NCBI GenBank assembly: GCA_011389745.1
Contig: JAABTQ010000034.1
Coordinates: 1-37,489, forward strand
Reading direction: 5' to 3'
Source: Desulfobacteraceae bacterium
GTDB taxonomy: Bacteria > Desulfobacterota > Desulfobacteria > Desulfobacterales > SKZT01
DNA: 37,489 nucleotides
Made by a program: the position numbers and the translations under genes
Shown: in pieces, positions 3,904 to 34,455 of the stretch
Layout of the letters: every line of letters starts with the position of its first letter
How positions within the stretch are numbered: position 1 is the first letter of the stretch
Notes under the pieces: generated by a model
The model's database searches: none
What the model was told of the DNA's origin: nothing
Seen by the model: only the letters and a program-made list of their open reading frames with translations

Positions 3904-5086
3904 TCATTCTCTTTTTTTCTCGCCTATGATCCTTGTAGAATAAGCTACAGCAAGCAGAGCAGTACCCATATCCGCAAACACCGCTTCCCACATGGAGGCG
4001 AGGCCCATGGCACCGAACACGAGAAAAATTCCTTTCACAGTGAATGCCGGGAAGATATTCTGCCAAACAATGTGTCGTGTCAGCCTCGCAATAGAAACGG
4101 CTTCGGCCATTTTCATTGGAGAGTCAGTCATCAACACCACATCGGCTATCTCAATAGCAGCATCGCTTCCAAGCGCTCCCATGGCCACGCCAACATCGGC
4201 TCGGGCAATTGCGGGTGCATCATTGACGCCATCACCAACAAAAGCGGTTGTTCCATCCTCCTGGTGCCTTCACGCAGCCTTTCAAAAATTTCGACTTTAT
4301 TTTCAGGTAACAGATCAGCATAGAAGCTGTCAAGTTTGAGCCTTTTTGCTACGGCCTCAGCCGCACAGGCATTTTCTCCGGTCAACATTGCTATATGATC
4401 AATACCTTGCGCTTTTAAGGATCGGATCGCTTCAGCCGCATCGGGCTTGATTTCATCGCCTATTGTAATATACCCAGCGTATTTTCCATCCACGGCAACG
4501 TGAGCAACCGTTGATTCAAAATCGCATCTGCTATGATCGATTGCTTGATGATGCAGAAATTTATCGTTTCCGACCATAACTGTGTGATCACCATAACGGG
4601 CAGTCACCCATTTACCTGAAAAGCCTGTGTGATCAAATACTTTCGAAGTATCGATCTTACTGCCGTTTTTTTTAAATAAAGTTAAAATGGAGGTGGCGAT
4701 GGGATGGTTGGACTGGTACTCGGCAGCGGCAGCAAATTCCAGAAGCTGAGCCTTTGAGAAACCGTTTGGGCTTACCACTTCCTGGACTTTAAAAACGTCT
4801 TTTGTGAGCGTTCCTGTTTTGTCAAACACAACCGTTTTAACTGCAGCCAGTGCATCAATAAAATTGGACCCTTTAACCAGGATGCCTCTTCGCGATGCTC
4901 TTCCGATGCCGCCAAAATAGCCTAATGGGATGCTGACCACCAATGCACACGGGCAGGAGATGACCAAGATTACCTGCCCGGTAAATCCATGTTTGAAATG
5001 ACGCGCCGGTTACAACCGGTGGAATAAAGGCGATGCACGCGGCGATTAGCACCACAGCGGGGGTGTAATAACGGGCAAACCCCTAA
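3904..5086 (-). pseudogene. Heavy-metal P1B-type ATPase remnant (ZntA/CadA-like), truncated and frameshifted
   Basis: Three adjoining reading frames together spell the C-terminal half of a Zn/Cd/Pb-type P-ATPase. The first, from about 5086, reads [20 protein letters not shown] and ends in the WIYR segment. The second (4967-4146) carries the membrane metal site [10 protein letters not shown], the phosphorylation motif DKTGT and MLTGEN, where families usually have MLTGD. The third contributes the hinge [12 protein letters not shown] and the last membrane segments, ending at 3904. The frame breaks are near 4975 and near 4260. The second fits loss of one base before a GTTAFVGDG segment. The N-terminal metal-binding domain, first membrane helices and actuator TGES are absent: homology stops at about 5086. 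At least the truncation is not a sequencing artefact that one base could explain. Confidence 0.88.
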
Positions 5087-30964: not shown

Positions 30965-31948
30965 TCATGTTAATAAACAAGCCTTCATGTTATCGATAAT
31001 TTCGGACAGGATAATTTCGAGGTCTGTTTTGGGTTCAAAACCGATAAACGATTTCAATTTATCAACACTGGGAACCCTGCGCTGCATGTCCTCGAAATCT
31101 TTTTTGAAAGCCTTTTCATAGGGAATTTTTTCGATTGCGGATTTAGAATTGGTTTTTTCGATGATTTTACAGGCCAAATCCTGGATCGAAATTTCTTTAG
31201 TACCCCCTACATTAAAGATTTCTCCAACTGCCTTTTCGTGTTTCATTAATTCTATGAGTGCCCTGACGACATCATCCACAAACGTAAATGTGCGGGTCTG
31301 GGTACCGTCTCCATAAACAGTAACAGGAAGGTCTTTTAAAGCCTGTTCTACAAACCTGGGAATCACCATTCCATAGGCGCCTGTTTGCCTGGGGCCCACC
31401 GTATTAAATAATCGTGTGATGACTACCTGCAATCCTTTGGTGCTGTGATAGGCCAGAGCTGTAAATTCATCCATCAGTTTGGATGCCGCATAACTCCATC
31501 GGGATTTTGTTGACGGTCCGTAGATAATATTGTCTGTTTCCACCAATGGTGCATGAAGGTGTTTGCCATAAACTTCCGAGGACGAAGCAATCAAAACTTT
31601 TTTATTAAACCGCGAGCACAGATTCAATACCATTTCAGTTCCCTGAATGTTGGTTTTAATTGACTCCAGAGGGTTTTCCAATATGTAGCGCACACCCACT
31701 GCCGCGGCCAGATGAAAGACCATGTCGGCAGAGCCGATCAACTCGGCCATGGTGAGAGGATTCAATATAGTATCGATGGTTACCGATAGTCGTTTTTGGA
31801 GCCTGGGATCGTTTTGAAGATACCTTATGTTGTCCATGGATCCCGTGGAAAGATTATCAATAATGGAAACTTCCATGCCCTTTTCAAGACAGGCTGAAGC
31901 CAGATGAGATCCGATAAAGCCGGCTCCACCGGTGATGACAACTCTCAT
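30965..31948 (-). CDS. NAD-dependent nucleotide-sugar epimerase/dehydratase
   Basis: This 327-aa extended short-chain dehydrogenase has the NAD motif TGGAGFIGSHL at the N-terminus and the catalytic Tyr153-x3-Lys157 in WSYAASKLMDE. A Ser/Glu segment, ASSSEVYGKH, precedes it, and the sugar-nucleotide region GDGTQTRTFTFVDDV follows. It resembles UDP-glucose 4-epimerase and UDP-glucuronate decarboxylase relatives, and the exact substrate is not clear. An AAGGAC site precedes the ATG. It lies 33 bases downstream of the CoA-transferase/GNAT gene on the same strand, so the two probably form an operon. Confidence 0.9.
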   Translation of the reverse strand: MRVVITGGAGFIGSHLASACLEKGMEVSIIDNLSTGSMDNIRYLQNDPRLQKRLSVTIDTILNPLTMAELIGSADMVFHLAAAVGVRYILENPLESIKTNIQGTEMVLNLCSRFNKKVLIASSSEVYGKHLHAPLVETDNIIYGPSTKSRWSYAASKLMDEFTALAYHSTKGLQVVITRLFNTVGPRQTGAYGMVIPRFVEQALKDLPVTVYGDGTQTRTFTFVDDVVRALIELMKHEKAVGEIFNVGGTKEISIQDLACKIIEKTNSKSAIEKIPYEKAFKKDFEDMQRRVPSVDKLKSFIGFEPKTDLEIILSEIIDNMKACLLT

Positions 31949-31981: not shown

Positions 31982-33853
31982 TCAAACCGGCTCGTCAAAC
32001 CGGCAGCTAAGCATAAGGTCATCGCCCAATACAGATCTGATTTTAAAGGGAAGTTTTCTGAATAATCTGATCATGTTTTTGTTGCCCGGTACCGTCACGG
32101 CAAACAGACCTAAAATACCGTTTTCCCTGGCAGCTTCCGCAAGTTTGCGGATCAGAATTTTTCCAAAACCTTTTCCCTGATATTCCTTACTGACGGAAAA
32201 GGCTATTTCCGCCATATTATCTGCTGATTCAAAATAATAAGAACCAACGCCCACGACCTTTTCGAAACCTGATTCACCCACCAGGGCGATGATGGTCATA
32301 TTATGAATATAATCGACCTGAAACATACCCTGGACTTCCTGGCGGACAAATCGTGATTTTTCGTGAAAAAATCTGGATATCACATCCACTTTTTCAAGTT
32401 GGTAAAAGTGTTCCTGTATCCGTCTTTCATCAACAGTTTTGGCAGGTCTGAAAAGTATCTTTTTCCCGGCGATTTTGATGGTTTCTTCAAATCTAACCGG
32501 GTAAACACCTCGGACAGATTCGCCAAGGGTTCGTTCAGATCCTACCATGCCCAGATTTTTAGCTTCAAACAGCAGTTTTTCGCGAAAATCCGGATGGGCG
32601 ATGCTGATAATGGCAAGGGCTCTCTGCTGAATGCTTTTGCCGTAAAGGTTGGCGACGCCGAATTCGGTAACTACCCAGCGGATGTCCTCTCTGGGAATGG
32701 TAACAATAGTATTGTTGAGCATCGGAACGATCCGGCTTTCCGTGTTGTCTTTGGCGGTGGCATTGATCATAATAATCGATTTGCCGTGTTTGGATCGGTT
32801 TGATCCTCTGACAAAATCCGGTATTCCTGAAACTCCCGCATAAAGATTGTACTCCAGGGCATCGCAGGACACCTGGCCGGCCAGATCAATATATTGGGCA
32901 ACATTCATGGATACCATTTTATTGTGCCTGGAGATAATATCAATGTCGTTGATATAATCAAAAGGATAAAAATCCACGGCCGGGTTCAGGTCTAGAAATT
33001 CATACAGGTTTTTGGTTCCCACCGCACAACCCGCAACCATTTTACCATTATTGAACCCTTTCATTTTATTGTTGATCACCCCCATGGAATATAGTCTCAT
33101 CATATCCACTGTGAGAAACTGGGAATGAATGCCGAGGTCATTTTTTTCCGAAAGCGCAAGACTGGTGGCCTGTGAGGCAGTGTCCAGGCCGATTTGCAGC
33201 GTTGAGCCGTCTTCGATAAGACGGGCGATATGCTTGCCGATCATATCCGCTCTTTGGGGAATCGGAACCGAAGATATGGTCAAGAGATCTTCATCATATT
33301 CGACAATGGCATCGACATCATTGACATGAATAAAACTCTGGCCTAAAACCATCGGCATCCGGCTATTGACCTGCGCAATCACGATATCTGCGGACTGGGC
33401 TGCGGCCATGGTGACATCTACTGAAACCCCAAGGCTCATCCACCCGAAATCATCCGGGGGACGCACCTGGATCAACGCCACATTGATGGGAATCAATCTC
33501 TTTTTAAACAGTCTGGGGACTTCCGAAAGGTTCATTGGCGTATAAAAACGCATATTTTTTGCCAGGATTTCCGATTTGGCGGACCCAAGATAAATGGATC
33601 TGATGGTCAGACGCTGGTCCCGTGTTTTGTTGGCGATCATTGTCAGGGAAGTTGTCTCTGTGGACATCAGCCGGATAATTTCAATATCGGAAAGTCGGCC
33701 CGAACCTTCCGCAAAACCCTTCACCAGATGCTGGGGCTCTCCACAGTATGATCCGATAAAGACCCTTTGCCCCGATTTAATCATTTGGATGGCGTCATGG
33801 ACCTCTTTTTTCTTTTTGACATAGTCATCAGCCCAGTATCCGCTGAAGGTCAT
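31982..33853 (-). CDS. Acetyl-CoA hydrolase/transferase-family protein fused to a GNAT acetyltransferase domain
   Basis: This 623-aa protein has an N-terminal class I CoA-transferase fold (about residues 1-435), resembling 4-hydroxybutyrate and acetyl-CoA CoA-transferases. A C-terminal GNAT domain (about 460-615) has the acetyl-CoA loop YQGKGFGKILIRKL. Transferase landmarks are GWMSLGVSVD, VSGIPDFVRGSN and VVTEFGVANLYGKS. The nucleophilic glutamate expected in an H-[ST]-E motif is Gln245 here (LGIHSQFLTV). The preceding glycine/proline loop is also altered. The frame opens at TTG 33856, but the ATG at 33853 has better spacing to AGGGAG. Similar fusions are common in Desulfobacterota. Activity of this copy is uncertain. 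Confidence 0.88.
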   Translation of the reverse strand: MTFSGYWADDYVKKKKEVHDAIQMIKSGQRVFIGSYCGEPQHLVKGFAEGSGRLSDIEIIRLMSTETTSLTMIANKTRDQRLTIRSIYLGSAKSEILAKNMRFYTPMNLSEVPRLFKKRLIPINVALIQVRPPDDFGWMSLGVSVDVTMAAAQSADIVIAQVNSRMPMVLGQSFIHVNDVDAIVEYDEDLLTISSVPIPQRADMIGKHIARLIEDGSTLQIGLDTASQATSLALSEKNDLGIHSQFLTVDMMRLYSMGVINNKMKGFNNGKMVAGCAVGTKNLYEFLDLNPAVDFYPFDYINDIDIISRHNKMVSMNVAQYIDLAGQVSCDALEYNLYAGVSGIPDFVRGSNRSKHGKSIIMINATAKDNTESRIVPMLNNTIVTIPREDIRWVVTEFGVANLYGKSIQQRALAIISIAHPDFREKLLFEAKNLGMVGSERTLGESVRGVYPVRFEETIKIAGKKILFRPAKTVDERRIQEHFYQLEKVDVISRFFHEKSRFVRQEVQGMFQVDYIHNMTIIALVGESGFEKVVGVGSYYFESADNMAEIAFSVSKEYQGKGFGKILIRKLAEAARENGILGLFAVTVPGNKNMIRLFRKLPFKIRSVLGDDLMLSCRFDEPV

Positions 33854-33964: not shown

Positions 33965-34393
33965 TTAAAAGGGAATATCGTCATCCTGGGTATCGGGGTA
34001 TGGTGTTTCCGGAATGTCGGATTTTTTGGATGACGTCATCGAAGTCTTTGGAGCATCCCCCGTATCACGGGTTCCCAGCATTTGCATCTGGTTGGCGACG
34101 ATTTCCGTGGTATACTTTTTATTGCCGTCTTTATCCTCCCACTCCCGTGTCTGGATTTTGCCTTCAATATAAATTTGCTTACCCTTGGATAAATATTCTC
34201 CACAAATTTCGGCAAGTCTTCCGAATGCAACAATTCGGTGCCACTCAGTACGTGATTCGCGCTGACCATCTTTTGTCCAGTTTTCCGTAGTTGCCAGGCT
34301 GAAATTGGCTACCGCCATACCGCTGGGAGTATATCGAATTTCAGGATCTTTTCCTAAATTTCCAATAAGTGTTGCTTTGTTTAAACCGGCCAT
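33965..34393 (-). CDS. ssb: Single-stranded DNA-binding protein
   Basis: This 142-aa SSB has an N-terminal OB fold ([17 protein letters not shown], then [13 protein letters not shown] and [13 protein letters not shown]) and a disordered linker. The acidic C-terminal tip DDDIPF binds replication and repair partners. A longer frame exists upstream, but the ATG at 34393 with a GGGAGG site and the typical MAGLNK start was chosen. A clear promoter lies just upstream. RarA, encoded elsewhere in this window, is a known SSB partner in other bacteria. Confidence 0.97.
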
Positions 34394-34426
34394 TTTTACC
34401 TCCCTTTTATTGGATTGTTTTATTGA

Positions 34427-34455
34427 CAAATACAAGAGATATTGAACAATGTCAA
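34427..34455 (-). promoter_or_regulatory. Sigma-70-type promoter of ssb
   Basis: Read leftward, a perfect TTGACA (34455-34450) and TATTTG (34432-34427) are separated by exactly 17 bases. They lie about 35 bases upstream of the ssb ATG. This is the best promoter match in the window. Confidence 0.6.

Follow-up and report, generated by a model that had tools for sequence, protein, structure and literature searches.

The window, a stretch of 37,489 nucleotides from a Desulfobacteraceae bacterium (contig JAABTQ010000034.1), carries on its minus strand a gene at 31982..33853 whose ORF, Pfam matches and fold describe a 4-hydroxybutyrate (4HB)-CoA-transferase-like half joined to a Pat-like GNAT half. 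Read from the ATG at 33853 the protein has 623 amino acids; a TTG one codon upstream would give 624. On the 623-aa protein, Pfam placed PF02550 at residues 11-191, PF13336 at residues 279-430 and the GNAT domain PF00583 at residues 526-601. The CoA-transferase-like domain (residues 11-431; 32561..33823, minus strand), from which several conserved loop residues are gone, is defined by PF02550, PF13336 and its resemblance to 2oas, and the Pat-like GNAT domain (residues about 450-620; 31994..32506, minus strand) by structure and profile matches. From reading their sequences, we named the upstream neighbour a single-strand DNA-binding protein (33965..34435, minus strand) and the downstream neighbour an NAD-dependent sugar epimerase-like protein (30965..31948, minus strand). 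In locus L038, the ORF upstream of the gene falls in the same cluster as the window's single-strand DNA-binding protein. None of 153 plasmid records searched spanned 80% of the window protein. Elsewhere in the window (3904-4967, minus strand), a stretch that reads as a heavy-metal P-type ATPase runs over two frames and has a seemingly incomplete start.

An AlphaFold2 model built from 57 sequences (mean pLDDT 77.4, pTM 0.64) gave the N-terminal half a predicted fold close to the 4HB-CoA-transferases 2oas (Z 48.7, rmsd 1.9 over 416 residues) and 3gk7 (Z 46.9), so that Pfam and predicted fold both assign this half to the acetyl-CoA hydrolase/transferase fold. The H-[ST]-E glutamate of an active 4HB-type enzyme is absent from it. 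The codon at 33119..33121 (minus strand) is CAG, and the resulting H-S-Q motif faces H-T-E or H-S-E in five solved 4HB-CoA-transferases, with no gap at or beside the motif; Gln245 pairs with Glu238 of 3gk7. This alignment bears out the sequence-only reading, which had placed a glutamine (HSQ) where class I CoA-transferases carry their catalytic glutamate. We take the aligned H-[ST]-E glutamate to be the catalytic residue throughout the 4HB-CoA-transferase family. For related class I enzymes, E46 (PMC12400318) and, in AarC, E294 (PMC4876117) are reported as the catalytic glutamate.

Homologues were searched in 297 genomes of the phylum, 214 of which gave a match, and in a named collection from which 80 of 361 loci were kept; additional fused and non-fused homologues completed the set of relatives. 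Among named records, those most similar to the window protein come from Desulfobacteraceae and Desulfobacterales, the top one at 82%. Alignment of 230 ORFs yielded 220 distinct rows, and the tree was computed from 219 sequences with the motif columns excluded and one partial ORF dropped; FastTree's long-branch flags include L152, L216 and L217. Thirty-nine rows have no match to the window's GNAT half and are referred to here as lacking this GNAT, although some of their frames exceed the length of a lone CoA-transferase (1317 aa in L230, 582 aa in L231). GNAT-bearing rows are split from these by one change in the tree, with support of 99/97 in a 57-row IQ-TREE tree. The window protein belongs to a clade of 111 rows, supported at 90 in FastTree and, through the 16 of its rows that are in the smaller IQ-TREE tree, at 100/100. 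Of these 111 rows, 34 make up the window's subclade (FastTree support 99); the other 77 do not form a single subclade.

Residue 245 is Gln in 96, Glu in 42, Asp in 16, Pro in 11 and another residue in 15 of the 180 fused rows, and Glu in 28, Gly in 9 and Ala in 2 of the 39 rows lacking this GNAT. The sequence-only reading had asked whether Glu and Gln divide by clade, and they do: Gln occupies the position in 91 of the 111 rows of the window's clade (82%), as against Glu in 28 of the 39 rows lacking this GNAT. The rest of the clade has Glu (6), Phe (3), Leu, Pro, Tyr or His (2 each) and Ala, Met or Arg (1 each), and in a ranking of 421 positions by increasing variability, position 245 comes 259th. 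Because so many clade members share the glutamine, a sequencing error at this codon is unlikely. The six clade rows with Glu nest inside the Gln clade and lack R94, G222, G342 and G382; from this placement, Glu was probably regained in them. Loss of Glu is not peculiar to the fusion, since 11 of the 39 relatives lacking this GNAT are also without it. A second Glu-less group is made up of eleven such CoA-transferase relatives (L200-L210), whose catalytic position holds Gly or Ala. We found no support for repeated independent loss of Glu: uniting the clade with the second Gln lineage costs 3.55 log units (AU p 0.38), and uniting all fused lineages without Glu costs 0.33 log units (AU p 0.48).

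The exchange at 245 is accompanied by others. As references we used two intact sets, 28 Glu rows lacking this GNAT and 36 fused Glu rows outside the clade, in which 45 positions are at least 88% conserved; both sets were picked by residue 245, which is consequently Glu in every row. Among the 45, positions 94, 245, 342 and 382 are altered in the clade and positions 339, 365 and 395 are mixed. The window has Ser94 (33572..33574, minus strand) where intact relatives have Arg (25 of 25 filled Glu rows lacking this GNAT, 33 of 36 fused Glu rows outside the clade), and Thr382 (32708..32710, minus strand) where they mostly have Gly (24 of 27 filled rows and 32 of 36). Residues 340-343 (32825..32836, minus strand) read GVSG in place of GxGG, with G342 present in 28 of 28 and 35 of 36 rows of the intact sets and Ser or Thr at this position in 102 of the 111 clade rows. 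The loop at residues 220-229, QIGLDTASQA (33167..33196, minus strand), holds a G-x-G (222-224) in intact relatives; position 224 is Gly in all 28 Glu rows lacking this GNAT and Asp in the window, and across the clade position 222 is Ser in 52 and position 224 Asp in 34 of 111 rows. All 34 rows of the window's subclade carry both D224 and S342. The two glycine loops are therefore broken at D224 and S342, but G222, G340 and G343 are kept. The sequence-only reading had this loop without its usual glycine and proline pattern, which holds for the glycine but says less for the proline: Ser227 of the window is also seen in intact rows, position 227 being Pro in 18 and Ser in 9 of the 28 Glu rows lacking this GNAT. 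AarC has a mobile loop at residues 270-274 (PMC4876117), to which residues 221-225 would correspond by the numbering offset of 49 (294-245).

Much else of the active enzyme persists. H243, K265, N290, D323, Q327, F347, E397, G399, R411, P421 and R424 are kept at 99-100% in the clade (H243, Q327 and E397 each in 111 of 111 rows), and N302 in 106 of 111. No other glutamate takes the catalytic position: E397, the candidate substitute for Gln245, is invariant, but just as invariant in intact forms, and is ruled out in this role. The gene is not decaying, since the CoA-transferase half is under purifying selection, with a dN/dS of 0.03-0.10 (five pairs; a rough estimate, as synonymous sites are partly saturated). 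We also counted six residues picked for differing in the clade, so that the clade's score of 0-3 kept in 111 of 111 rows arises by construction. All six are kept in 32 of the 36 fused Glu rows outside the clade, and five of six in all five rows of the second Gln lineage, where D343 replaces Gly. Because several conserved positions have been lost together clade-wide and residue 245 splits by clade, these alignments argue strongly, as the sequence-only reading had surmised, that the CoA-transferase half has very probably lost transferase chemistry.

Other fused lineages depart from Glu in their own ways. Sixteen GNAT-fused relatives (L144, L145, L153-L155, L157-L160, L163, L166, L167, L170 and L226-L228) have Asp at the catalytic position, and every one of the 16 retains the remaining five of the counted residues. 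In a class I enzyme, E46A and E46S had no activity, and exchange of Glu for Asp converted the transferase to a hydrolase (PMC12400318); in light of that conversion, the Asp forms may be natural acyl-CoA hydrolases. Rows with an H-S-P motif, two copies of which lie in the source genome (L003 and L004), have likewise lost residues, Q327 among them, that are retained across the window's clade. The source genome has four PF13336 matches in all, each in a GNAT-domain protein and none with Glu. Two short ORFs of 115 and 138 aa at L235 (3841-4540, minus strand) resemble the two ends of another CoA-transferase-GNAT gene that lacks its central part and is probably a remnant.

The GNAT half is predicted to resemble those of protein acetyltransferases of the Pat type. 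Its model is nearest the GNAT domain of Streptomyces lividans Pat (4u5y; Z 21.7, rmsd 1.9 over 160 residues) and also matches E. coli PatZ (9it0; Z 19.1 over 170 residues), to which the profile match has an E value of 4.7e-27; weak matches to spermidine and aminoglycoside acetyltransferases were found as well. PF00583 scores above its cut-off, and the CoA motif Q/R-x-x-G-x-G/A is present as Q559-G-K-G562-F-G564. This motif also varies in the clade, where Q559 is found in 109, G562 in 98 and G564 in 82 of 111 rows (Gly or Ala at 564 in 94). Glu549 (32207..32209, minus strand), the candidate general base, is Glu in 111 of 111 clade rows; the window protein thus has the Pat-like GNAT with conserved Glu that marks type I Pat.

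We then analysed gene neighbourhoods in the window and the 80 named loci (81 in total, one without a focal ORF). Outside the window's subclade, the 77 clade rows include 49 named loci, 39 of them with at least 1.5 kb downstream; CODH/ACS or RACo-like genes lie just downstream in 32 of the 39 (a CODH/ACS core gene on the same strand in 20, a RACo-like gene only in 12, neither in 7). Four of the seven with neither (L057, L071, L089 and L090) carry the probably regained Glu; L114, also with Glu, adjoins CODH/ACS. The source genome itself has a 60% paralogue with an H-T-Q motif (L232, 13793-15664, minus strand; G000:C40) just upstream of a CODH/ACS cluster, followed directly by genes for RACo-like ferredoxin, CdhD-like, CODH, AcsB, CdhD and pterin-binding proteins. 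In the window's subclade, 31 loci are named and 25 have the downstream stretch, and a CODH/ACS or RACo-like downstream gene was found in 0 of the 25. A CODH/ACS partnership of the window's own gene is accordingly unsupported, and the cellular role of this copy may differ. At nine loci (L040, L083, L088, L095, L101, L104, L110, L116 and L117) a long acyl-CoA-synthetase-like protein is encoded, usually no more than three genes away from the fused gene; the one in L101 reads as PatZ-like.

At the level of genomes, 177 of the 241 in the class have a strong match to the protein (E at most 1e-150) and 188 have AcsB. Both occur in 148 genomes, the protein only in 29, ACS only in 40 and neither in 24 (Fisher p 0.0008, uncorrected for kinship); for four of the 177 the best E value lies between 1e-150 and 1e-200, and a few of these might contain other fused types alone. 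Strict dependence on CODH/ACS is ruled out by the 29 of 177 strong-match genomes without an ACS match. The neighbourhoods suggest that the family is tied to acetyl-CoA metabolism, which need not apply to the window copy. More tentatively, an acetyl-CoA-sensing acetyltransferase family may feed the acetyl-CoA state back on CODH/ACS (Wood-Ljungdahl) in Desulfobacterota, with the window copy a paralogue that has departed to other targets; we hold this to be possible rather than probable.

Taken as a whole, and by analogy with Pat, the CoA-transferase half is best explained as sensing CoA or acyl-CoA on behalf of the GNAT, as the sequence-only reading had proposed. We consider it fairly probable that the window encodes a Pat-like acyltransferase whose regulatory half is a dead CoA-transferase kept as a CoA/acyl-CoA-binding domain; of this scheme, we infer the loss of activity, ligand binding, allosteric coupling and the protein substrate. 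The N-terminal half would be a 4HB-type class I CoA-transferase unable to form the glutamyl-CoA thioester, yet still able to bind acetyl-CoA or CoA. Its domain closure would depend on ligand and would switch the GNAT half, which would transfer an acyl group to lysine (or another amine) with Glu549 as base. In AarC, the E294A exchange abolishes activity but leaves the protein able to bind CoA and to close fully, and the authors of that study proposed that the contact between Glu and CoA props the site open (PMC4876117). By this token, a Glu-less domain could be a ligand-driven switch.

The predicted fold and purifying selection would fit equally well with a CoA-transferase half that is only a scaffold, for dimerisation or for docking of acetylation targets, and that binds no CoA ligand; the alteration of several conserved loop residues agrees with this too. 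We consider such a scaffold unlikely, as many residues of active relatives that presumably line the pocket are kept (H243, Q327, E397 and N302). Alternatively, the half could have altered its chemistry, acting as a slow acyl-CoA hydrolase or as a transferase based on Gln or another nucleophile. Retention of Gln in 91 of 111 rows, not a full scatter of residues, is in keeping with this, as are the known route from Glu to Asp to hydrolase (PMC12400318) and the five residues retained by the Asp-type fused rows. Gln, however, lacks the carboxylate on which the known mechanism relies, the E46A and E46S mutants are dead (PMC12400318) and additional conserved residues are gone, which makes altered chemistry very improbable; data on a Gln mutant of a class I CoA-transferase were not found in the portions of the open-licence literature consulted. 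As for the GNAT half, GNATs are diverse and the weak matches to spermidine and aminoglycoside acetyltransferases would suit a GNAT that acts on a small molecule and is regulated or supplied by the first half. Since Pat-type protein acetyltransferases provide both the nearest structures and the nearest profile matches, we regard this as quite unlikely.

Compared with the sequence-only reading, our analysis adds the clade-wide state, the Pat-like GNAT, the fused lineages with Asp, Pro or intact Glu, and the CODH/ACS or RACo-like setting of most other members. If the CODH/ACS link is true, it would represent an unrecognised control of anaerobic acetyl-CoA metabolism. Because Glu, Asp, Gln and Pro forms coexist in one fused family, the path from enzyme to pseudoenzyme is open to dissection. 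By titles and the beginnings of abstracts, no paper on a CoA-transferase-GNAT fusion was found in the open-licence literature searched, and the term CoA-transferase is absent from the available text of a review (PMC8556138).

Among known systems, the window protein recalls the type I protein acetyltransferase Pat/PatZ of Salmonella enterica and E. coli. The acyl-CoA-synthetase domain fused to the GNAT in Pat types I and II has no catalytic activity but binds acetyl-CoA (PMC8556138). Both arrangements set a dead CoA-handling domain, presumptively dead in the window protein, N-terminal to a GNAT of similar fold (for Pat, PMC8556138). They differ in that Pfam finds a CoA-transferase at the place of Pat's regulatory domain, so that the regulatory half has a class I CoA-transferase fold and not that of an NDP-forming acyl-CoA synthetase, and in length, the window protein having 623 aa and the 9it0 chain 886. 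Another CoA enzyme fold seems here to have gone Pat's route from enzyme to acetyl-CoA-binding regulator. With the 4-hydroxybutyrate CoA-transferases 3gk7 and 2oas, the N-terminal half shares its predicted fold and many conserved residues, but it has Gln for Glu, has lost more conserved residues and has gained a GNAT. Type III GNATs likewise have a ligand-binding domain before the GNAT, as predicted for the window protein, but their regulatory folds are cAMP-, ACT- or NADP-binding domains.
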